This document shows positions 20,387-41,513 of a stretch of 41,513 nt of DNA, in pieces. The stretch comes from a virus. Each line of letters starts with the position of its first letter. Position 1 is the first letter of the stretch. A program made the position numbers and the translations under genes. The notes beneath the pieces were generated by a model. The model did no database searches and had not been told where the DNA came from. It was given only the letters and a program-made list of their open reading frames with translations. The stretch spans positions 1 through 41,513 of the IMG/VR virus record IMGVR_UViG_3300036760_001539; one strand, given 5' to 3'.

Positions 20387-20857
20387 TTAGGGCAGGAGAT
20401 AGGGGAGTGCAGCGATGACTTGGACGTGATTCTTTTCTATCCCGACAGCGTCTCTTCCACACTTACGGGCCGCGAGTAAGGTGGAGCAGGAGCCAGCATA
20501 AGGGTCTAAGATGGTGCCCTGCGTCCGGTTGATCAGTCTAACGATGGCGTCCACGGGCCGCGCAAAGGGACATCCGCGGTCAGGGTAAGTCGCCAACTCG
20601 GGCATCGGTATCTGCTCCACTGCACAGCCGTGCTGGAATCGAATGAAGCCGGGAACCGGGTTGGTGATGAGTATGAGAGCACCGTCTTTGGGAAGGAGCC
20701 GCCAGAGGTAGGAGCCGGAGGTCTGAACCCACTGGATGGCTTTCTCGAGGTTCAGGTTGCCGATGGAAGGTTCGGTGATGACGGCACCAAACTGTTCAGC
20801 CGGGAACTGGGCCGCCATGTCTTCGGCCATGCCGTGAAACAGAATCTGGGTGCTCAT
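20387..20857 (-). CDS. DNA methyltransferase-like protein with degenerate catalytic motif
   Basis: ATG at 20857 overlaps the preceding stop as TAATG; 156 residues. The C-terminus TILDPYAGSCSTLLAARKCGR, then AVGIEKN, is a good beta-class S-adenosylmethionine-binding motif (FxGxG-like), and the order (motif IV first, motif I last) fits a beta-class enzyme. The catalytic motif IV, expected as SPP(Y/F) or DPPY, appears as TEPSIGN at about residues 34-40. This and the absence of a target recognition domain suggest the protein is non-catalytic or very divergent. It lies in the head operon between a small gene and the capsid gene, an odd place for a methyltransferase. Confidence 0.65.
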   Translation of the reverse strand: MSTQILFHGMAEDMAAQFPAEQFGAVITEPSIGNLNLEKAIQWVQTSGSYLWRLLPKDGALILITNPVPGFIRFQHGCAVEQIPMPELATYPDRGCPFARPVDAIVRLINRTQGTILDPYAGSCSTLLAARKCGRDAVGIEKNHVQVIAALPYLLP

Positions 20858-21072
20858 TAGTTCCGCATCAAGCCGCGATGGAAGTCCGCCATGTAGAGGA
20901 CCTGGGCTGAGCGGGTCTTGTCCTGCTGATAGTCGCTGCAAGCCTTCTTGGCCGCGTTGAGACGGTCTACCGCGAGTCCCATTTCCTCAATAGAACTGGC
21001 AATTTCGACAGCCTTGTTGGCCGCCCTTAGCTCGTCTTGCAGAGCATCGAATTGTATGTCACCGCTCTTCAT
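20857..21072 (-). CDS. Small hypothetical protein, helical
   Basis: 71 residues, TAATG junctions on both sides. The sequence is highly helical (FDALQDELRAANKAVEIASS, LAVDRLNAAKKACSDYQQ) and ends RGLMRN. It lies between the prohead protease and the methyltransferase-like gene. The helical nature would suit a scaffold or adaptor, but no family was recognised. Confidence 0.6.
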   Translation of the reverse strand: MKSGDIQFDALQDELRAANKAVEIASSIEEMGLAVDRLNAAKKACSDYQQDKTRSAQVLYMADFHRGLMRN

Positions 21073-23754: not shown

Positions 23755-24225
23755 TTACCTTTCAACGGTCCGTCTCAAAGCAGCTTCACGCAGTTTGTGT
23801 CGCGTGACTTCGGAAACCAAATGACCGCGCTTTGCCTCGCTTATTCTTAGACAGGTTTCAGGGGAATGTCTGCCAACAAAGTTCTTGGTGCCATGCATTC
23901 CCTTGCTGATCCGTTGTCGAACTTCTGCGGATCGCGGGTGATTCAACTTCATCTGTCGAATCATCTCTTTGGTCTCCTCAGAATGGCTGAGAAAACCATC
24001 GCGACAATCCTTGGCTAAGTTCAGAACTTCACAACCTGCGTCCACGAAATACTTCACCCAATGAGCCTCGCGTTCTCGGACGACCATGCTGTCGCAGGTT
24101 TCCAGAACGGCCCAGTCGCACCAGAGCATGCCGTGACCCTTCAGCCGCTCAATGATTCTCTTCGATCTCCCGATGTAGACACCCGGTGGCGCGAAGATGA
24201 CGTAGATGGAATGAAGACTCACCAC
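23755..24225 (-). CDS. GIY-YIG homing-type endonuclease
   Basis: 156 residues, GTG start at 24225 or the next codon. Residues 6-20 give a GIY-YIG motif ([16 protein letters not shown]), with Arg at KRIIERL and Glu in the later [16 protein letters not shown]. The C-terminal 80 residues contain short repeats of the NUMOD type ([44 protein letters not shown]), which bind DNA in homing nucleases. No intron is visible around it, so it appears free-standing, between large terminase and portal genes. It should cut related phages that lack the insertion and spread itself. Confidence 0.85.
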
Positions 24226-24230
24226 TTCAC

Positions 24231-24258
24231 TTATAGATACCCTTCTCCCACTGGGATT
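24231..24258 (-). promoter_or_regulatory. Copy 3 of the repeated promoter- or operator-like motif
   Basis: Minus-strand form AATCCC, 13 bases, GGGTATCTATAAGTGA, between the large terminase stop and the GIY-YIG start. It shares GGGTATCTATAAGTGA with the copy at 18884-18912. It may drive or control the nuclease gene, or be connected with its target. Confidence 0.5.
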
Positions 24259-26077
24259 ATTGAGGCTGCTTGGCTCTGCACTTGTCGCACAGGAAGATCA
24301 GCGTCTCGCCTTTGATCTCTCCGATACAGAGAGCGGTGCACCGCTGGCAGTTGCCAATGACCGAGATAGAGCCGCCGCCGCTGGAACGCGGGGTGCCCGC
24401 GATGACCAGAATGCGACCGATTGCCATGAGCAACGCGACAGCCGGGTCGATCTTGTTGGTGACTTGCTCCTTGGTCGGGAAGAGCATGCCGTTGCGGTCA
24501 CGGTGACAGACGACGTTGCTGATGGCCCAGGCGAGCACCGGGTCGCCGTTGTAGTGGAACCTCTTGTCGAGAACCGCTGCTTCTAACTCGTCCATGGGAG
24601 GAGTGAACATCACAGCAGTCTGTTTGAACTCCGTCATGGGCACTCCCTCACCGAGCAAGTGGTTCACAATCTCCACAGCTTGATACTGGTCGTGTGGAAC
24701 CTCTTTGACTTGGAACTTCTTGCACTGCTCGCGGAGCCAGTCTTCCACCATGTCGTAATCGTTGGTCTCGCCTGGGCATTCCTCGATGACACCCTCAGCA
24801 AGCCATCCTTGGTAATGACTGTTCTCCTTCTTCTTGATCTGCATCTCGGGCAGGAGGTAATGGCCGAATGCGTAATAGTGCCGCTTGGGCTGGCCCGCCC
24901 CGTTGGGGATCGTCCGGTAGAACACTTTCATGTTGGCGAGGATGTCCAGCTTGGAGGCCAAGTCTTCCCCGATGACGCAGTCGTCTTTGAGGAAGTCGTC
25001 CTCCTTCAAGGTGGGATCGGCGCAGGCCAGGAACTTGGAGAGTTCCATCCACGTGCTGTCTGACTTACACCAGATGTTCAGGTGCTTGGTGAGGAAGCCG
25101 GGTTGCTGGCTGGGAATCTGTACGGCTGACGCCGCCTTGTTATGAATCGTCTTTGGGTCTACGCAGACGCCCCAAGACGGATTGGCCTTGATCCAGGCAG
25201 CCGGGGTTGCCCAGTCGTCGCCGCCCTTGCCGTCCTTGTCGGGTAGGTCAATCGTCCAGATGCAGCCGAAGATCGTTTCGTCGTGAAGCGCACCCTCCAG
25301 TACCTTGCGAATCTCAGTGTCGATCTCGTAGCAGACAGACGCGAGGTCGGTACCCGCCGTGGTGATAATCCAGAGCATCGCGCCTTGGCGTTTGCCCGTG
25401 GCGGTGTCAAGTGAGTCGTAGAATCCGCGATCAGCCAGAGTGTGGAGTTCGTCAAAGATGACGAAGTATGGGTTCTTGCCTTCTGACGTGCGGTCATCAG
25501 AGGCCAGCGGGCGGAATAGACTGTTGGACTTCGCGGAGTGGAGGCTGTGCTTCTCGATCTCGATCCCAGCGCGGGCCGCGAACGCGGGCATGTTGATGAG
25601 CATCTGACGGGCCGCTCCCCAGACGATCTTCGCCTGGTCTTTGGATGAGGCGCAGGAGTACACCTGCGAGCCGGGTTCCGAGTCTGCGAAGGCTTTCTCG
25701 ATTCCGAGCGGTGCAGACCATGTAGATTTCCCACTACCTTTGGGAACGCAGATGTATGCACGACGGAATCGGTTGCCACCCTCGAGATCAAGCCAGGACA
25801 TGGCGGTCATGGTGACCCAGACTTGCCAGGGCATCATCACAACCTTCTTGCCCGCGAACTTGCGTCCCTCGACGTGAGGACAGAGTTCAACGAACCGACA
25901 GACCTTGGCTCCCACTTCGGGATCGTAAGTGTATGGGAACTCCTCGGTTCCCTGTCTCTTGAGATCATTCACTTGTCGCTGGCAGGCGAGCTTGACCCAC
26001 TTACACGCAGGGATAGCTCCGGACAGAACGTCCGTAACGTATTGAGCCGCGATGGCTTCGTAGTTACGCTGCGCCAT
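24257..26077 (-). CDS. terL: Terminase large subunit with C-terminal zinc ribbon
   Basis: ATG at 26077 (GCGGAGTTCA before it) is preferred; 606 residues, overlapping the lysozyme gene by 14 bases. ATPase motifs are VPKGSGKST (residues 111-119, Walker A-like) and [10 protein letters not shown] (206-214, Walker B plus Glu), with a coupling motif WIITTAGT (236-243). A nuclease Asp lies in [11 protein letters not shown] (368-378). The protein packages DNA into the head through the portal. The last 32 residues (CQRCTALC...FLCDKC) form a zinc-ribbon-like extension that is not part of the minimal family. HNH and small terminase genes lie just upstream. Confidence 0.93.
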
Positions 26078-26495
26078 TGAACTCCGCTTCCTCTGCAAGA
26101 CGACGACGGAGCAGGCCAGCGACAACCTTGCCGCCCGCGTGATCCCACTTTTCAAACTCTTCGGAGGCTCCGTGGTAGTCGCCCGCGTTCAGCAGACGCA
26201 GGAGTGTGGAGCCGTTGAGGGATGCGCAGCCGAGGTTGAAAGCGAAGTCAACCAGGGCATCAAATTCTCCCTGTGTTAGTGGAACTTTCACGTGCGTGTT
26301 GACGTCGTTCTCGCAGGCTGCGATGTCTTGCATCAGCCACTCCTGTGCTTGTAACTGCGTGCAGTGGTCGCCCATGAAGACGCCGCGTGTATGTCCGTAT
26401 CCAATCGTCCAGACACCCACTTGATCCTGATAGGCTTCCAGGCGACATCCTTCGAACGACTCTGTTAGTGCCAATCCTTGCGTTGAATATTTCAT
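26064..26495 (-). CDS. Phage lysozyme (endolysin), glycoside hydrolase family 24
   Basis: 143 residues, ATGA overlap with the small terminase. The T4/P21-type triad is intact: Glu15 in FEGCRLEAY, Asp24 in YQDQVG and Thr30 in VWTIGYGHT. The later GEFDALVDFAFNLGC and LRRRLAEEAEF are also typical of the family. The enzyme cuts the glycan strands of murein at the end of infection. It has no signal or anchor segment, so a holin is needed. The position between small and large terminase genes is unusual. Confidence 0.9.
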   Translation of the reverse strand: MKYSTQGLALTESFEGCRLEAYQDQVGVWTIGYGHTRGVFMGDHCTQLQAQEWLMQDIAACENDVNTHVKVPLTQGEFDALVDFAFNLGCASLNGSTLLRLLNAGDYHGASEEFEKWDHAGGKVVAGLLRRRLAEEAEFNGAA

Positions 26496-26911
26496 TGTGT
26501 TGGTTGATCTCCTGTTTCAAACTCCGCGAACGGGTCCGCCTTACCTTCCGGCTCCCGTGGTGTGACGGAAACCTTGGAGCGTTCCACAGGGTTCATACCG
26601 AGCATGGACAGGCACTTCTGGAAGTTGGAGATGTCACTCGGGCGATCGGTGCCTTTGCGAATGCGCTCCAACAAACGAACAGCGATCTCCACTTGCTTGC
26701 GGTCAGTCTTCGTCAAGACACCAGGAGCGATTTCGGAGACGATCTCCTTCCAGATCTTCTTCTGTTCCTTGGTCAACAGAGAAGGACAGTTGCCCAGGTT
26801 CGGGTCGGGCTGAGGCTCGTTAGCGCGGGCCGCGAGCCGCTCCGGATGCTTGTCGGCTGAACCGGATAGCTTCAACAGAGCCGTTGGCTTGCGTGGTCTT
26901 CCAAGTCCCAT
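26492..26911 (-). CDS. terS: Terminase small subunit, P27-like
   Basis: 139 residues, start ATG at 26911 after GAAAGGAGTCATAAC. The N-terminal basic GRPRKPTALLKLSGSADKHP and the following PxxP-type linker and helices (LLTKEQKKIWKEIVSEI, LTKTDRKQVEIAVRLLERI) match P27-type small terminases, which recognise the packaging site. Together with HNH protein and large terminase it forms the packaging module of a cos-type phage. Confidence 0.85.
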   Translation of the reverse strand: MGLGRPRKPTALLKLSGSADKHPERLAARANEPQPDPNLGNCPSLLTKEQKKIWKEIVSEIAPGVLTKTDRKQVEIAVRLLERIRKGTDRPSDISNFQKCLSMLGMNPVERSKVSVTPREPEGKADPFAEFETGDQPTQ

Positions 26912-27020: not shown

Positions 27021-27371
27021 TCAAAGGCAATGACTTAGCTCTGCTCCTGTCTTCTTTGCATGGCAAGAGTGGCAGAGACACTGTAGGTTCGCTTCGTCGT
27101 AGAAGTCCCTGCCTGTAGATACCCACGTCCTGGCGTCAATGATGTGGTCCACGTCTGTAGCTAGCGCGTTGTTGCACTCTACACAGACAGGGAATAGGGA
27201 CAGGAGTCTGCGTCTTAGTGCCTGCCATCGCTTGGTCTTGTACAGGGAGACGAGTGGATTGTTCTCCTTCAGCTTGCGCCACAGGTCACGCTCATGCATG
27301 GTGGCCTGGGCCGTATGCACTGTGCAATTGAGAGTGCCGCAATGACACGCCTTGGGCGCACGCATTGGCAT
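27021..27371 (-). CDS. HNH endonuclease of the packaging module
   Basis: ATG at 27371 overlaps the preceding stop as TAATG; 116 residues. The HNH motif is complete: CVECN, DVDHIIDARTW, then NLQCLCHSCHAKKTG, with paired cysteines for a structural zinc. An additional N-terminal CHCGTLNC motif may bind another metal. Small HNH proteins next to terminase genes stimulate cos cleavage during packaging in HK97-like phages. That role is the best supported here. Confidence 0.88.
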   Translation of the reverse strand: MPMRAPKACHCGTLNCTVHTAQATMHERDLWRKLKENNPLVSLYKTKRWQALRRRLLSLFPVCVECNNALATDVDHIIDARTWVSTGRDFYDEANLQCLCHSCHAKKTGAELSHCL

Positions 27372-30337
27372 TATGGTGTCACCAGTGGCTTGCTTGGTTC
27401 GAATCCCCACTTAGAGAGGAAGACTGCTTCATATGGTCTGTAGTCGTTCCTATGCTGTAGGTATGCAGGGTTGCGTGCGTCATCCATCTCCTGGTGCTGT
27501 GCTACAGCGTCAGGACAGAGGACCACGTCCAAGAAGGCACCACGTGCACGGATGAAGAAGTCTTCGTGTTCGTAACCTACCTTGATCTCCTCGTCCCAGC
27601 GGAGTCGCTTGATGACTGCTGTCTTGGCGATGAAGAAGTTGAGGACCAGGTCTGCTTTGGTGTACTGGATGGTCAGTGACTGGATGCCTGCGTTGGTCGT
27701 GTGCTGCTTGTACCACTCGGGTTTGGCCGGGGTGAAGAACAGTTTGCCGTCTACCTTGACGAAGTTGCCACCGAAGTCCAGATAGTTGCCTGACTGCACG
27801 AACCCTTGGGTGCCGACCTGTAGGACGCGGCCCGCCGCGATGTCTGCTACGTCCATCAAGCCGCGCAGATACTCTAGGTGGGAATCTTTGAAGCCGAAGT
27901 CGTCGTCAGCAATCAGGCAGTAGGGTGTCGTGCAGGCATCGATCAGGACGTTGCGTCCTTTGGACAATCCGCTGTCGGCTGGCAATGAGATGTAACGCTC
28001 CACGCCCAGAGTCTTCAGCTTGGCTTGCTTGGCCTTGTTAGTCGGGCCGTCGTCTGCCACGATGACGTGGATGCTGGGATAGTTCTCTTTCAACGTCTTG
28101 ACGCAATGGTAGAGAGACTCTTCGCGCATGAACGTCTTGAGCAACGCGGTGACGTCGGACATATCGGTGAGCAGAGGATCGGGAGGCTGCACGCCGTTGA
28201 CTGCTGGACGGTCTGGCGTCTTCTTGTCTACTGTGACCACGAAGGCATAGGGCAGCAGGTTCTCTTCCCAGTGTCGTGTGCAGTAAGGCTTGGGGAGGAT
28301 CTTGGCAGGCATGTGGTCGTGCACGTAGCGATTCAGATGGGACTCGTCGTGCCATACCGCCGTGAAGCCGTTTGCCTTGTCTGTCTCCACGTTCTTGACG
28401 ACGGTCTCTGCCATCGCGAGGTAGGCTGGCACGGTGCCACCTTGGAATCCGCCACAGACGTATTGCTTGACCTCGCACAAGGGCAGGTAGGCTGTGCTCC
28501 GCGGATTAGTCTCCGGTGTACCCGGCTTGCCGATGAAGTTCGGGTGAATCGTTACCACCAGTCCGTCAGCGTAGATGTCGGGAGGCAGCGGGCGGATGAT
28601 CTTCATATCGATGTCGGTGTGATAGACGTACTCGTACTTGGCAAGCCACTTACTCTGCGAGAGGATCGTCTTGTGGCGTAGGAGGGTGACGTCGGGCCAG
28701 CCAGCGTGTGGGATCTTCACTTGCTTGGCGACCTTGTACCGGGTCGGGCTGTCCGTGAAGAGCAGGACGTCTGCCTGTGGGAAGTTCTTAGCCGCTCCCT
28801 CCAGGTTCTGCTCGATGTATTGCCAGTATGGCTCGCCTGTAGCGATGAGGACGAGTGCCGTCTTAGGCGGACTGTAACGTCTCTTCAATTGCTCATAGAG
28901 GCAGCCAGTCGCATACTTCGCGTCCTTGTCCTGCTTCATGTTGCGCCATGCTTCGTTCCACAGGTGGACAGCGCGGGAGTCCGGATACAAGACAGCCGGG
29001 ACGGTAGGATCGATCATCGTGTTGCGCTCGAGCCGGAGCGAGAACGGGATCGGACAGAAGACTTCGGGCCGCTGCACGTAGCGTTGGAGTTTGAAACGCT
29101 CCACTGCCTGGTGCATGAGCTTGGGACCGATGGCTCCCCACTGCATGTTCTTGTCTATGTCTTTGCACTGGTCAACGAGCCATTTGTAGATGTCGCTGCC
29201 AGCGGGTGCTTTGAGGTTGCCACAGTTGGTGTACGCCATTCCCGCGCTGCGCTCGCTGCTGAAGACGTAGGGAACGTCGAAGACCAGAGGTGCGATGCAG
29301 ATGCTGTCGGTGTCTACCCACCAGTTGCCCTTCTTGTAGAGCAAGCTGTAGCGGAAGAGATCAGCGAAGCCAGCGTAGGAGTTGGTGCCAAAGCCGCCGC
29401 CTTCATACACGAAGACGCGCTCCTTGAGGACGATCTCGTTGGCGTCCTTGATCACGCATCCCTTGGGGACGTCTGCCACCGGGCCGTAAGTGTAGAGATG
29501 GAACGGATGCCCGTGGTGCAGGTAAGACTTGATGCACGTCTGCTCCATAGCGGTGAGACGTTCGCCAATCCACAGCGACTGGACGATGTCCCGGCTGTTC
29601 GGTTCGCTCTTCTCCATAGAGAAGTCGGCCAACGTGCGCTCGGTAGGTTCCTTGAGGACAGGAGCCGGGGATGGTTGTTTCTGGGAGAACGTTGCCAGCA
29701 AGCGCACAAGGTTCGCACCACGGATTTCACGCAGGGCATCGGGCGAGCAGGCATGTGTGCTGATGATGTCGTTGTCCAGGGATGGGAAGCCGAGACGGTG
29801 ATCCGTCTTGATGCGCTCGCTGTGTATCTGTGGCACGCCCATAGAGAACAGAGCCTTGCCAACCAGCGCATCCTCCAAGCCTGTCTGCCTGAACAGAAGA
29901 GGCTGTTTCACCACAGCCAACATCGCTCGTTTGTCCAAGGAGTAGCAGCCGCCCTGCGGATACTTGATCCGGTCGTTGTGTGGAGGGTCGATACGCATCG
30001 ACGCCATGCAGGGGACGCTGGTTAGCTCCGCCAGATAGTCGGGCATTGGCATCAGGAACGTGTCATCGTCCACTTTGATCAGGTTGTCGTAGCGGTTCGC
30101 CAGCGCATACTTGCAGAGTTCGAACGTCTTGTAGGGCAGGTGCTCGTAATCGTCGGGACAAGACAGGTGAACGATGTCGCCAATCATGTCGTCAGCCGGA
30201 CAAGGGTCGGTGCCGCTGAAGAACTTGACGTCCAAGTTGTCGTTGAGTTTCCGTACCCAGGACATCCAGGAGTCGCGCACCGCGTTGCGACGGTCCAGGT
30301 ATCTGCTGCAAGTTAGAACTGCGATGAGGATCTTCAT
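27371..30337 (-). CDS. Four-domain glycosyltransferase fusion (GT31-, GT32-, GT6- and GT12/GT2-like)
   Basis: ATG at 30337 overlaps the preceding stop as ATGA and follows AAGGAAAAGCA; 988 residues. Domain 1, residues 2-195, is GT31-like: RRNAVRDSWM, YKTFELCKYALANRYDNLIK, VDDDTF (90-92 DDD) and GLEDALVG. Domain 2, about 250-395, is GT32-like: FADLFRYSLLYKKGNWWVDTDS (DTD 342-344, in two parts). Domain 3, about 490-690, is GT6-like: YHTDIDM (DID 575-577), VCGGFQGGTVPAYLAM, WHDESHLNRY. Domain 4, about 728-960, is GT12/GT2-like: FMREESLYHCVKTL, ADDG, GLSKGRNVLIDA, IADDDFGF (DDD 811-813), YEHEDFFIRARG. All four acidic metal-binding motifs are intact. I infer stepwise addition of up to four sugars, to host surface glycan or to virion protein. 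It lies downstream of a sigma-like gene and upstream of the packaging genes. Confidence 0.85.
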   Translation of the reverse strand: MKILIAVLTCSRYLDRRNAVRDSWMSWVRKLNDNLDVKFFSGTDPCPADDMIGDIVHLSCPDDYEHLPYKTFELCKYALANRYDNLIKVDDDTFLMPMPDYLAELTSVPCMASMRIDPPHNDRIKYPQGGCYSLDKRAMLAVVKQPLLFRQTGLEDALVGKALFSMGVPQIHSERIKTDHRLGFPSLDNDIISTHACSPDALREIRGANLVRLLATFSQKQPSPAPVLKEPTERTLADFSMEKSEPNSRDIVQSLWIGERLTAMEQTCIKSYLHHGHPFHLYTYGPVADVPKGCVIKDANEIVLKERVFVYEGGGFGTNSYAGFADLFRYSLLYKKGNWWVDTDSICIAPLVFDVPYVFSSERSAGMAYTNCGNLKAPAGSDIYKWLVDQCKDIDKNMQWGAIGPKLMHQAVERFKLQRYVQRPEVFCPIPFSLRLERNTMIDPTVPAVLYPDSRAVHLWNEAWRNMKQDKDAKYATGCLYEQLKRRYSPPKTALVLIATGEPYWQYIEQNLEGAAKNFPQADVLLFTDSPTRYKVAKQVKIPHAGWPDVTLLRHKTILSQSKWLAKYEYVYHTDIDMKIIRPLPPDIYADGLVVTIHPNFIGKPGTPETNPRSTAYLPLCEVKQYVCGGFQGGTVPAYLAMAETVVKNVETDKANGFTAVWHDESHLNRYVHDHMPAKILPKPYCTRHWEENLLPYAFVVTVDKKTPDRPAVNGVQPPDPLLTDMSDVTALLKTFMREESLYHCVKTLKENYPSIHVIVADDGPTNKAKQAKLKTLGVERYISLPADSGLSKGRNVLIDACTTPYCLIADDDFGFKDSHLEYLRGLMDVADIAAGRVLQVGTQGFVQSGNYLDFGGNFVKVDGKLFFTPAKPEWYKQHTTNAGIQSLTIQYTKADLVLNFFIAKTAVIKRLRWDEEIKVGYEHEDFFIRARGAFLDVVLCPDAVAQHQEMDDARNPAYLQHRNDYRPYEAVFLSKWGFEPSKPLVTP

Positions 30338-30984
30338 TGCTTTTCCTTGTCGAACATGTGTTTGGCGTGCCATTGACGGCGATTCATATCTGGCGAGGGA
30401 TAGTTCAGGCAGAGTCCCTCGTCATGCATCGCGTCCACGATTTGCCATCGAATCTTCAAAGTCTCCAGGGCATCCATCCCCAGCTTGCGGCACTGTCGCC
30501 CGAGGTTGATCACTGACCAATGCTCCTCGTCTTCTAATACCCAGTCGAAAATGCCCAGCGCGGGCACGTCGAGCCTCTCTCTGACGCGATCAAGCACGAT
30601 CTGTAGGTCTGGGTTGGGTAGAACTGACGTTGCCCTCTCGATCATTCCTGAGAGCGATTCCTGTTCGTCCTTGCATTCCTCCAGATAGACGGTGCGCTGC
30701 GCCTTGGACTGGTCACCGTTGGGCCGCCACCCGGTTATGCGGGCCAGGGAGTTGATGGCCGCGTTGCGGATACACTGGATGACGTAGTCGGAGCCGCGCT
30801 GCTTGTCTGGCGGAATCGTCAGCATCTTGGCGATGATGTCCTGACGCAAATCCTCACAGTCTTCCTTGGACAGAGAGAACGATTCGCGATAGCGATTGAT
30901 CTCACGTTGAATCGCCGCCGCGAACTGCGTGAGCAGTTCCTCTTGCGTTGGCACACGACTCGTCCATCTCTTGTACTTCGCCAT
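30334..30984 (-). CDS. Sigma-70-like regulatory protein, second copy
   Basis: 216 residues, ATG at 30984. Residues about 30-80 (LSKEDCEDLRQDIIAKML... then VIQCIRNAAINSLARITGW) resemble sigma-70 region 2, with its acidic helix followed by a hydrophobic, Arg-rich helix. The second half has ILDRV-like helices and a possible helix-turn-helix near 150-190 (LGRQCRKLGMDALETLKIRW). It could direct RNA polymerase to late promoters. It ends in an ATGA overlap with the glycosyltransferase gene. Confidence in the family is moderate; another DNA-binding regulator is possible. Confidence 0.5.
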   Translation of the reverse strand: MAKYKRWTSRVPTQEELLTQFAAAIQREINRYRESFSLSKEDCEDLRQDIIAKMLTIPPDKQRGSDYVIQCIRNAAINSLARITGWRPNGDQSKAQRTVYLEECKDEQESLSGMIERATSVLPNPDLQIVLDRVRERLDVPALGIFDWVLEDEEHWSVINLGRQCRKLGMDALETLKIRWQIVDAMHDEGLCLNYPSPDMNRRQWHAKHMFDKEKQ

Positions 30985-37000: not shown

Positions 37001-39289
37001 TTAGATTTCTGCGGCGGCTACAGCCTCGGGTTCCATCTGGACTTCACGCGCAGCAAACAGAGACGACATCATCGCGATGCGTATGCGCTCTTGCCGCTCC
37101 CGCTCTTCCGCCACTTCGGCGTCCTCTTCTTTGCGCGTAGTCCCTTCCGGTTGCTCAGCCGCTTTTTGTTGATCTTGGTAGTGAAGCAAGGAATGTACGA
37201 TCAACCAAATCTCATACCGTTTCGTGAATGACTCTGCCAGTGCGACATCCCTGTTCTCAAACACGGCCCGCTGGTTTGCAAACTTGGGAAACGCCGTTGA
37301 GTAGCGAACCACCAACGTTCCTTGCTCCATCTCCGCTTCTGAGGCAATCAGTGCTACATTCTCCGGCCAACCTAGGTCTGTCCAAGCAGGAGTCTCGGGA
37401 TCAATCGGCTCTGGTCTGAACGGCGGTATCGTAATCTTCTGGTCGGCAGGCTTTGCTTCTGGAACTTCAACGATCTTGTAAGGTCGCTCATCCACGAGTA
37501 CAGGCAAGCCGGGTCGTGTTAGTTCCACACGCAGGACTCCCGAGTGCCCGACCTGTGCATTATTGGCAGCCTCGATCACGGCGCGCATTCGTCCGGCTAC
37601 GAGAGCAGTAGAACCGCGCAGAATCAGTTGGTCGCCTACAACGAGGTTGATGCGTGAAGCAGAGGGATTGTTCGGATTGTGATACGTGCTGTTCGCGTCC
37701 GTTACGATTCGGACGTAGCGTCGTTGTTCGGCATAGAAAGTGATCGGATGATCTTCATCCCAAACGAAGCGGATGTATGTCGGAGGCTCGTGTAGTTCAA
37801 TCGGCGTTGGCTTGGGACGAGGCTTAGGCGGGTTGGCAGGGTGGTTGGTCGGCGTCCCGGTGCCCTTGGTCTCGCCTCCGGTCGTCTGGCCCATATCAAG
37901 CCCGTGAATCTTCATCAGACGAGCGACCTCGGACTGCATTTGCTGGATGGCATTCTCATCTCGCTCGTGCATACCCCGATGCTTGGCCTCTTCGTTCAGC
38001 TTCGCGAGTACGTCGTCAGACTTGAGAGCCTTCACCATTTCCTGCTGAATCATTTCGCGAACTTTGACTTCACGCTGCGTCTCGCGACTGGAAACGAACA
38101 ACTGCCGCTTTGATGTCGGACTAAGGTTGTTGCAGTCAATGTGGCAAATGAGTCGCGTAGTCAGGAATGGAAGCTCCGCCTCCTTCCTTATCAGCAGCTG
38201 TGAGAACTCGCCTTGGTTCTGTCCGTTGAGCGTGAGGACGATTGGCTTGGCAGGATTGACGAAGGCCGCGTTGGGCTTCTTGTTGGCCTTATCCGAGTGT
38301 GTCAGCACCCAATATTCAATTCCGACTCGTCCAAAATCGCCCAGTGAGACGTTGAACATCGGAACGCTGTGGGCCAAAGCTGGACCGCTGGTCTTTTCAT
38401 CCCCGTCATCAGTCGCGCCGTTGAGCGCATTACGAGAACCCTTGATGACGCGGCGGTAGTCGTTGACGCGATTGTCAAACCAAATCGGCATGACCGGGTC
38501 AAAGAGAGTCGTGTTCAAGCTGCCGTAAAGACTGTTCGGACCAACTGGTGAGGAATAGCCTGTAAGGTCGTAACCGAAGTGCCGCACCACCGTGCCCTCG
38601 GGGAACTCCTGGGCGTTGAGATCAGCCTGGGGCAATTCGCCGTTCTGCAGGACGAGATAGACGTAGTGCCCGATCTTGTATTCGTCCGGCGGAAGGTCAA
38701 GGAACTTTACGAGAGTGAAGCCTACTGGCTGATCCTTGTACCGACTCGCTACTAGCGTGTAGCGACAGAAGGAGAACGTCGTAGAGCCGCCCTGACCGTA
38801 TGCGCCAGCAAGGTAGTGCTTCTGTAGTTTGTTGCTTTCGTTCAGACTCAAAATCGTCTTGGGCATGTCCTGCGGTGTCATGCCGATGCCACGATCCCGT
38901 ATCTCAAGGATTCGGCTTTCTTTACCCTCACCCGCTTCCAGCTTGATCGTTACCTTCTGCGCGAGGGCACGACGCTGTGCGGGAGTCAATGAACTCAAGC
39001 CGTTTTCGGGGACGCCCAACCACGCAACCGAAGCCTCCAGCGGAGAGCGACAGACAGGTAGGCCGCCGTGGCGTTCATGCTCGAGTTCGAGCACGCCGTC
39101 AATGCCATTGGTGAGTCGTTCCACGGCGGAGCGGGCTGGGTCAGCAGATAACTCAATCGTGCCGCGATTGTTTTCGCGACCTAATGCCTTCCATCGGGTG
39201 TTGGTAGCTTGGAAGGTTCGCAGAGCAGTCTCAACGTCAGCAACCGAGTTGGCGGATGCAAGAGCCTTGTAAAACTCAACAGCGGTCAT
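37001..39289 (-). CDS. GHKL-type ATPase (gyrase B/Hsp90/histidine kinase/MutL fold) coupled to a methyltransferase
   Basis: 762 residues; ATG at 39289 overlaps the methyltransferase stop as ATGA. The N-terminal ATP-binding Bergerat fold is evident: N-box SAVERLTNGIDGVLE (Glu57, Asn61, Asp64), G1 box IRDRGIGM (132-136) and G2 box GAYGQGGSTTF (162-172). The middle contains DCNNLSPTSKRQLFVSSRE, then a helical region (about 430-470) and a Pro/Lys-rich linker; the rest is beta-rich and ends in a long charged helix (EEDAEVAEERERQERIR). No nuclease or kinase His motif is seen. Similar ATPases, MutL/MORC-like, occur with DNA methyltransferases in restriction-like systems. I infer ATP-driven clamp action on DNA, guided or restrained by methylation. 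Confidence 0.75.
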   Translation of the reverse strand: MTAVEFYKALASANSVADVETALRTFQATNTRWKALGRENNRGTIELSADPARSAVERLTNGIDGVLELEHERHGGLPVCRSPLEASVAWLGVPENGLSSLTPAQRRALAQKVTIKLEAGEGKESRILEIRDRGIGMTPQDMPKTILSLNESNKLQKHYLAGAYGQGGSTTFSFCRYTLVASRYKDQPVGFTLVKFLDLPPDEYKIGHYVYLVLQNGELPQADLNAQEFPEGTVVRHFGYDLTGYSSPVGPNSLYGSLNTTLFDPVMPIWFDNRVNDYRRVIKGSRNALNGATDDGDEKTSGPALAHSVPMFNVSLGDFGRVGIEYWVLTHSDKANKKPNAAFVNPAKPIVLTLNGQNQGEFSQLLIRKEAELPFLTTRLICHIDCNNLSPTSKRQLFVSSRETQREVKVREMIQQEMVKALKSDDVLAKLNEEAKHRGMHERDENAIQQMQSEVARLMKIHGLDMGQTTGGETKGTGTPTNHPANPPKPRPKPTPIELHEPPTYIRFVWDEDHPITFYAEQRRYVRIVTDANSTYHNPNNPSASRINLVVGDQLILRGSTALVAGRMRAVIEAANNAQVGHSGVLRVELTRPGLPVLVDERPYKIVEVPEAKPADQKITIPPFRPEPIDPETPAWTDLGWPENVALIASEAEMEQGTLVVRYSTAFPKFANQRAVFENRDVALAESFTKRYEIWLIVHSLLHYQDQQKAAEQPEGTTRKEEDAEVAEERERQERIRIAMMSSLFAAREVQMEPEAVAAAEI

Positions 39290-40373: not shown

Positions 40374-41513
40374 TCACGCAAATACTCCGAACGTGCCATT
40401 CACCTGTTCCCTGCTACGGACGGAGCGGGCTTCCTCACCTTCCAGATAGGCCAAGGTCGTCTCCAGCGCGGAATGGCCGAGCCTCTTCTGGATAGTCCGG
40501 GCGTCTACGCCGTCGCGGTGCTGGAGGGTGGCGTAGGTTTTGCGGAATTTGTGGAGCTTGAACTCCCCGTGCAATCCGGCCCGCTTCGCCAGGTACTTCA
40601 GTTTCCGAAGCATGTGGCCGTCGGCTTTGCCCTCAGCCTGCGGGAAGATCAGGCTGCCTTTCGTTGCCAGCATCCTCTTCTTTAATGCGGCGACGAGGAA
40701 GTCGGGAAGGGGAATCTCGCGCTCCTCATAGTCCTTGGGCTTCCAGTGCTCCTTCGCTTTCACGGTGAACAGGCCGTCCACGAAGTCTATGTCATTCCAC
40801 TCCGCATACATGACTTCCTGTTCGCGTGCTCCAGTGCAGAGGAAGAACTGAAACAGAATCCACTCTTCCGGGTCGGCCACTTTGAACAGAGCCTTGAGTT
40901 CGTCGGGGCGATAGGCACGAACCTTCTGCTCCACGAACTTCACACGCATCGTCACTTCCTTTATTCCGAAGTGTCGCAGGAACGTGACGACCTCGCCCAC
41001 CCGATTATGGATGGTGCGGTCGCCGAGGCCTTCCCGCCGAAGGTATCCAACGAAGTCATAGAGGTGCTGGGTAGTGACGTTTGCAAGGAGAGAGTTGCCG
41101 CTCGAGGCATAGAACTGCTGGAGGGTGTAGCGGTAGCCACCAGAAGTCTTAGGGGACTTCGAGGCAACGTTCTCAATGTATTTGTCGATGGCAGCGTCCA
41201 GCATCAACTCGCCCGGTTTGAGGACGAGCTTCGGCTCAGGCTTAGGGCGTGGCGCGGGCAGATTGAGGTTGCGGGAAATCTTCGTGCCGATGTCCGGCTT
41301 CCGCTTGCAGGACTCGGTGATTAGCTCCACCTGCTTCTTGAGCGACTCTTTCTGCGCTTCCCTGTAGGTCTTTGCGTCCAGCTGCTCCCACTTGCGCTTG
41401 CCGTCCTGGGTGTAGCGCAGGCAGAAAGTTGTATCGGGGGAATAGGCCGCTCGGGGCGAGGCTGGTTTGTATTTGCGAGTGCCGCTTTCGCGGGTGTAGA
41501 TCGTGACGTTCAT
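40374..41513 (-). CDS. int: Tyrosine-family site-specific integrase
   Basis: 379 residues; the ATG is the last three bases of the window, so the promoter and attachment site lie outside. The catalytic set is intact: Arg230 in CTGAREQEVMY, Lys in LFTVKAKEHW (about 252-254), His321 and Arg324 in KLHKFRKTYAT, His347 in RLGHSALETT and Tyr356 in LAYLEGEE. Residues 105-195 form a SAM-like core-binding domain, and the N-terminus is basic. It integrates the phage into, and excises it from, the host chromosome, which marks the element as temperate. Confidence 0.93.
   Translation of the reverse strand: MNVTIYTRESGTRKYKPASPRAAYSPDTTFCLRYTQDGKRKWEQLDAKTYREAQKESLKKQVELITESCKRKPDIGTKISRNLNLPAPRPKPEPKLVLKPGELMLDAAIDKYIENVASKSPKTSGGYRYTLQQFYASSGNSLLANVTTQHLYDFVGYLRREGLGDRTIHNRVGEVVTFLRHFGIKEVTMRVKFVEQKVRAYRPDELKALFKVADPEEWILFQFFLCTGAREQEVMYAEWNDIDFVDGLFTVKAKEHWKPKDYEEREIPLPDFLVAALKKRMLATKGSLIFPQAEGKADGHMLRKLKYLAKRAGLHGEFKLHKFRKTYATLQHRDGVDARTIQKRLGHSALETTLAYLEGEEARSVRSREQVNGTFGVFA

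Follow-up and report, generated by a model that had tools for sequence, protein, structure and literature searches.

The stretch of DNA analysed here, referred to as the window, is an entire IMG/VR record (IMGVR_UViG_3300036760_001539) of 41,513 bases. It derives from a small temperate siphophage with genes for an integrase (40374-41513), an HNH endonuclease, the small and large terminase subunits (TerS and TerL), portal, protease, capsid and tail proteins, all on the minus strand, on which all window features given below lie. The gene at 27371..30337 encodes a protein of 988 amino acids (aa) in which four domains of different glycosyltransferase (GT) families follow one another, namely D1 (GT31-like), D2 (GT32-like), D3 (GT6) and D4 (GT12-like). 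One 988-residue frame with four GT-A-type domains had been described in an earlier note made from the sequence alone, and this frame was found to be intact, with no frameshift or stop before the TAA at 27373-27371. Four full-length GT-A catalytic domains share the one open frame, indicating that it is not a product of chance.

Gene boundaries and flanking genes

The start at ATG 30337 is preferred because it is preceded by a well-spaced AAGGA Shine-Dalgarno sequence and overlaps the stop codon of the upstream gene (ATGA). A start further upstream in the same frame, ATG 30373 (1000 aa), was rejected, as it lacks a ribosome site such as the AAGGA ahead of the 988-aa start. The upstream gene (30334..30984), whose TGA forms the overlap, encodes 216 aa with weak similarity to region 2 of extracytoplasmic function (ECF) sigma-70 factors, which raises the question of whether it could be a phage-encoded regulator. 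On the downstream side, the GT stop overlaps the ATG of the HNH endonuclease gene (TAATG; 27021..27371), which marks a conserved slot and is followed by the genes for TerS (26492..26911) and TerL (24257..26155). The promoter and terminator scan gave the same counts as in shuffled sequence and was uninformative.

It is extremely improbable that the four-domain frame is a chimera of metagenome assembly. The gene is known from a single metagenomic record, and no near-identical copy was found (the IMG/VR and GTDB scans used here and below rely on short patterns, cover at most the best 80 loci each and may leave out records very near the window). However, the gene is one open frame with even GC across its length and intact overlaps with both neighbours, and a three-GT fusion occupies the same place in a relative, L391.

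Family assignment of the four domains

D1 (approximately residues 1-220; 29678..30337) matched the Pfam family Galactosyl_T (GT31) with an E value of 6.9e-9 and 36.2 bits, above the gathering score of 23 bits. The profile of its phage relatives matched C1GALT1 (4e-16) and B3GALT6 (1e-15). The AlphaFold (AF2) model of D1 had a predicted local distance difference test (pLDDT) score of 86.8, and its best Foldseek folds were human B3GalT6 and B3GNT2 (1e-12). D1 combines a modelled GT-A fold with both sequence motifs of GT31, the metal-binding DxD (DDD, residues 90-92; 30062..30070) and an intact EDxxVG catalytic-base motif (residues 155-160; 29858..29875). Searched alone, D1 had no match among 50,697 phage records.

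D2 (approximately residues 247-490; 28868..29599) matched Pfam Gly_transf_sug (GT32) with an E value of 3e-3 and 18.6 bits, below the gathering score of 23 bits. Its relatives of about 31 to 45% identity (L166, L037, L102, L146 and L027) pass the cut-offs of Gly_transf_sug or Gb3_synth, and its AlphaFold model (pLDDT 89.1) has a GT-A fold; on these two grounds D2 was assigned as GT32-like. The nearest Foldseek structures were SetA, YeGT and PaTox, with Och1 (GT32) ranked lower; the likeness of the model to effector toxins is confined to the fold. Both aspartates of the metal motif DTD (residues 342-344; 29306..29314) were invariant in 18 sequences.

D3 (approximately residues 491-710; 28208..28867) is a clear GT6 member, with an E value of 2.2e-21 and 76.4 bits against Pfam Glyco_transf_6 (gathering score 25 bits), 3e-31 against NCBIfam Gltr_6 and 4e-24 in phmmer to the Bacteroides ovatus enzyme BoGT6a. 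The WHDESHLN motif (residues 662-669; 28331..28354) includes the GT6 catalytic glutamate. At residues 575-577 (28607..28615) D3 has DID, the DxD of metal-dependent GT6 enzymes, not NxN. In the GT6 alignment, DxD was also present in cyanophage members (one with DAD) and giant-phage members, and NxN in contigs from the human gut. The earlier note had contrasted bacterial GT6 enzymes, generally with NxN, with vertebrate members and a cyanophage member carrying DxD. This was right for phages, but bacterial GT6 enzymes are mostly, not uniformly, NxN and metal-independent: DxD members such as that of Parachlamydia exist and have been shown to be metal-dependent (PMC3961637). The best bacterial GT6 match was on a 12-kb contig of a Planctomycetota metagenome-assembled genome.

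D4 (approximately residues 720-985; 27383..28180) belongs to the GT2 superfamily. Pfam places it in GT2 (Glycos_transf_2, E value 7.5e-12), and in a profile search of the PDB its closest solved relative was the GT12 enzyme B4GALNT1 (9h6j, E value 3.9e-21), in agreement with the resemblance to beta-1,4-GalNAc transferases pointed out before. The metal motif DDD (residues 811-813; 27899..27907) and the xED motif (ED 925-926 in GYEHEDF; 27560..27565) are intact.

D1 and D2 were modelled singly, because full-length multi-domain alignments put relatives of D1 and D4 into wrong domains; D3 and D4 were placed by sequence. Profiles thus place D1, D3 and D4, and AlphaFold and Foldseek give GT-A folds for D1 and D2. 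All four family calls of the earlier note (GT31-, GT32-, GT6- and GT12/GT2-like) hold, that for D2 by relatives and fold, and the four metal motifs lie exactly at the residues it had listed in the 988-aa numbering. From the families, the chemistry of D1 to D4 is predicted to be inverting, retaining, retaining and inverting.

Fusions in other phages and exchange of modules at a recurrent slot

In a tblastn search of the 50,697 phage records, no record covered the whole 988-aa protein. Scans of IMG/VR and GTDB with the whole protein used exact short patterns that were too strict and came back empty, but domain-wise alignments succeeded. Among the phage records and the loci listed by the pattern-based scans, the window alone showed this order of four domains, and no description of a phage four-GT protein was found in the open-access literature. 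This agrees with the earlier note, which knew of no described phage protein with this combination. The protein does not stand isolated, however, as multi-GT fusions are common in uncultivated phages and GT genes recur in the same slot.

The domain scans of IMG/VR gave 48 distinct open reading frames (ORFs) that measure 400 aa or more and carry at least two GT matches, a few of which count one split domain twice. The fusion orders found in phages were GT31-GT6, GT6-GT31, GT32-GT31, GT31-GT2, GT2-GT31 and GT32-GT12, and a 692-aa protein (L027) is a GT6-GT32-GT2 fusion. Separate genes of GT6, GT31, GT32 and GT2/GT12 adjoin one another in many large phages in IMG/VR, often overlapping (L100, L026). 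The 1228-aa protein at L179:1269-4955 contains GT2, TPR, methyltransferase, GT31 and GT32-like domains and a weak second GT2 below the cut-off; to judge by its sequence, it may be another phage protein with four GT domains plus a methyltransferase. GT6 fused to the other three families was not seen in any of the best 80 GT6 loci of bacterial genomes. Phage GT fusions occupying a recurrent locus make up a modular class, of which the window protein is an extreme case. Fusions also reach beyond the four families, to a RimK-like ATP-grasp, a sulfotransferase and a GT11 domain (L166:4345-7755; L192:3745-6621; L203:4480-6966).

Six further contigs have GT genes, most of them fusions, immediately ahead of HNH-TerS-TerL and in the same orientation. 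The slot was also sampled independently of GTs, by fetching 80 loci with TerL as the only query. GTs of these families were present in the slot in 4 of the 36 loci with enough upstream sequence (at least 2.5 kb), including both closest relatives. The first of these, L391 (IMGVR_UViG_3300050018_000046), shares 70% identity with the window in TerL, 57% in TerS, 50% in HNH and 62% in portal, and its slot gene encodes a 710-aa GT31-GT2-GT31 fusion. The N-terminal domain of this fusion is 58% identical to D1; the similarity ends where D1 ends, and the other domains are unrelated. The second, L390 (TerL 72%), has a single D1-like GT31 in the slot (45%). L341, one of the six further contigs, is more distant (TerL 45%, portal 42% and protease 53% identity), and the best TerL relatives among the phage records were proteobacterial phages at about 40% identity.

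In the tree, the D1 domains of the window, L391, L390 and the sister phage G002 form one clade with a support of 100/100. The recognisable structural proteins of G002 are 26 to 51% identical to those of the window, and its D1 homologue is encoded by a gene of its own, immediately after a tail-fibre gene. In G002 the major capsid gene (L384:3199-4440) is placed past the tail genes and well away from portal and protease, an arrangement that differs from that of the window. For D2, D3 and D4, the nearest relatives come from phages with no recognised relationship to the window. Since L391 keeps D1 beside unrelated domains and L390 has it alone, D1 appears to be a lineage-specific N-terminal GT31 with exchangeable C-terminal modules. 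In L336 and L102, GT32 is followed directly by GT12 with no GT6 between them; this recurrence of the GT32-GT12 unit indicates that the GT6 domain was either inserted in the window or lost in L336 and L102.

The mosaic nature of the slot, where relatives gain and lose domains, would also fit a fusion that grew by accretion and in which only some domains are active, at least one module being a scaffold or in decay. Inactive GT31 paralogues such as COSMC are known (PMC7185993). This explanation is nevertheless improbable, as the four metal motifs and all family catalytic motifs examined are intact and the frame contains no frameshift or stop.

Proposed function and comparison with known systems

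The protein is proposed to be a stepwise oligosaccharide synthase, and we lean towards a virion protein as its acceptor, because the GT gene is translationally coupled and positioned ahead of the packaging genes. It would be a cytosolic, metal-dependent enzyme in which, on the model of the chlorovirus protein A064R, the domains take turns to add one sugar each, with host nucleotide sugars as donors. The lineage-specific D1 would act first and place the inner sugar on a conserved acceptor; the outer, variable sugars would then come from the exchangeable C-terminal modules. Synthesis would take place in lytic growth, with a tail fibre or the capsid as the most likely target, and particle recognition or adsorption would be altered. 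That related phages have different sets of enzymes in this position suggests a swappable sugar-coat kit, most likely on the virus particle. More tentatively, the slot may be a glycan-diversification locus of temperate siphophages, in which a lineage-specific GT31 is joined to interchangeable C-terminal GTs and exchange within one gene rewrites the outer sugars of the virion. If true, such a locus would be the phage counterpart of antigenic or receptor variation.

Several observations weigh against this interpretation. No GT was detected in the slot in 32 of the 36 TerL relatives with enough upstream sequence, indicating that the slot GT is accessory, and the pattern of a constant D1 comes from four phages. 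The donors must be host-derived, since none of the window genes was recognised as a sugar-nucleotide gene. Lysogenic conversion, too, often involves GTs, and an integrase is encoded by the window phage.

The last point bears on the alternative that a host surface glycan (lipopolysaccharide, capsule or cell-wall polysaccharide) is modified in the infected cell or the lysogen, so that the receptor is masked and other phages are kept out (seroconversion). The temperate nature of the phage (integrase, 40374-41513) and the GT6, GT31 and GT12 chemistry fit such surface-glycan capping, and the GT6 gene of cyanophage P-SSM2 lies within a cluster of GT and nucleotide-sugar genes. Nevertheless, the GT gene shares translational coupling with the genes beside it and reads towards the packaging genes, the sister-phage homologues also lie within the late structural module, and, with respect to a Gtr-type system, no GtrA flippase, GtrB polyprenol/bactoprenol-GT or membrane GtrC was recognised among the scanned window ORFs. 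Modification of the host surface by a soluble enzyme is less likely than virion glycosylation, but is the main alternative.

Phage DNA is a far less probable target. GTs acting on modified bases, as a sugar hypermodification against restriction, are known from phages with hydroxymethylated DNA, such as the T-even phages (PMC9614988; see also Pyle et al. 2024, as cited in PMC12619734). Among the scanned window ORFs, some of which belong to no known family, no hydroxymethylase or base-hypermodification gene was recognised, the only modification genes being N6/N4 methyltransferases. In addition, the solved members of the families to which D1, D3 and D4 are matched work on glycans and glycoconjugates.

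Within the preferred reading of virion glycosylation, a candidate acceptor by composition is the Ser/Thr-rich PA14/Hint protein encoded at 1-2826, with 23% Ser+Thr overall and up to 45% over 60 residues. This fibre-like protein of 941 aa is very Ser/Thr-rich near residues 95-155 and contains a PA14/GLEYA domain (268-383) and a C-terminal Hint/Vint domain behind a Gly-rich stretch. Self-processing of the fibre via Hint/Vint is possible.

Viral transferase chains that build a glycan stepwise within one polypeptide are known from chlorovirus PBCV-1. A064R (GT-GT-methyltransferase) has been counted among the few enzymes known to combine three transferase domains; two of these are GTs, and the domains work one after another on the glycan as it grows (PMC9614988). 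A111/114R has three GT domains (PMC7826918). As in A064R, at least three transferase domains with intact active-site motifs are present in the window chain. Stepwise building was demonstrated in vitro for A064R, is supported by modelling and hydrolysis data for A111/114R and is suggested by analogy for the window protein. The chlorovirus proteins differ in that they belong to viruses of eukaryotic algae, use other GT families and sugars, have three transferase domains compared with four GTs and act on a known acceptor, the N-glycan of the major capsid protein.

D3 resembles BoGT6a and the mammalian ABO/alpha3GT enzymes in its WHDESHLN and GG motifs, whereas BoGT6a is metal-independent with NxN, and the solved BoGT6a and ABO/alpha3GT structures are single catalytic domains. 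The P-SSM2 protein PSSM2_268 is likewise a DxD-type phage GT6 whose gene has other GT genes next to it, but it is a single-domain protein among separate genes, without fusion. The L391 protein shares the slot before HNH-TerS-TerL, the N-terminal GT31 and the multi-GT architecture, but has three domains and lacks GT32, GT6 and GT12. The L336 and L102 proteins carry GT32-GT12 in one chain (44 to 45% identity to D2 and about 40 to 52% to D4), but lack the GT6 between them and an N-terminal D1, and L102 has an FkbM methyltransferase instead. Two stretches of the single chain of bacterial chondroitin synthase (2z86) match the D4 profile, but GT31, GT32 and GT6 are absent. Chondroitin synthase polymerises a two-sugar repeat. 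Glycans have been reported on capsid and tail-tube proteins of mycobacteriophages (cited in PMC12619734 and PMC13313380); no multi-domain fusion is described in these citing papers.

The window thus presents four distinct GT families fused in a small temperate phage, whose relatives hold other combinations at the same site. This constitutes a natural series for asking whether domain order corresponds to sugar order and whether phage coat glycans are diversified by module exchange. The protein would also be a self-contained enzyme chain for making oligosaccharides.

Three other genes of the window were noted. A 184-aa ORF between the capsid and protease genes (20387-20941) has a match to just the C-terminal portion of an N6/N4 DNA methyltransferase, and its homologue in L391 (37%) sits between HNH and TerS. 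A homing-endonuclease-like ORF (23755-24225) lies between the portal and terminase genes. A 762-aa protein with an HATPase_c_3 domain (GHKL/Hsp90-type ATPase) is encoded at 37001-39289, adjoining a DNA methyltransferase gene and the integrase gene, and could be a defence or MORC-like module.

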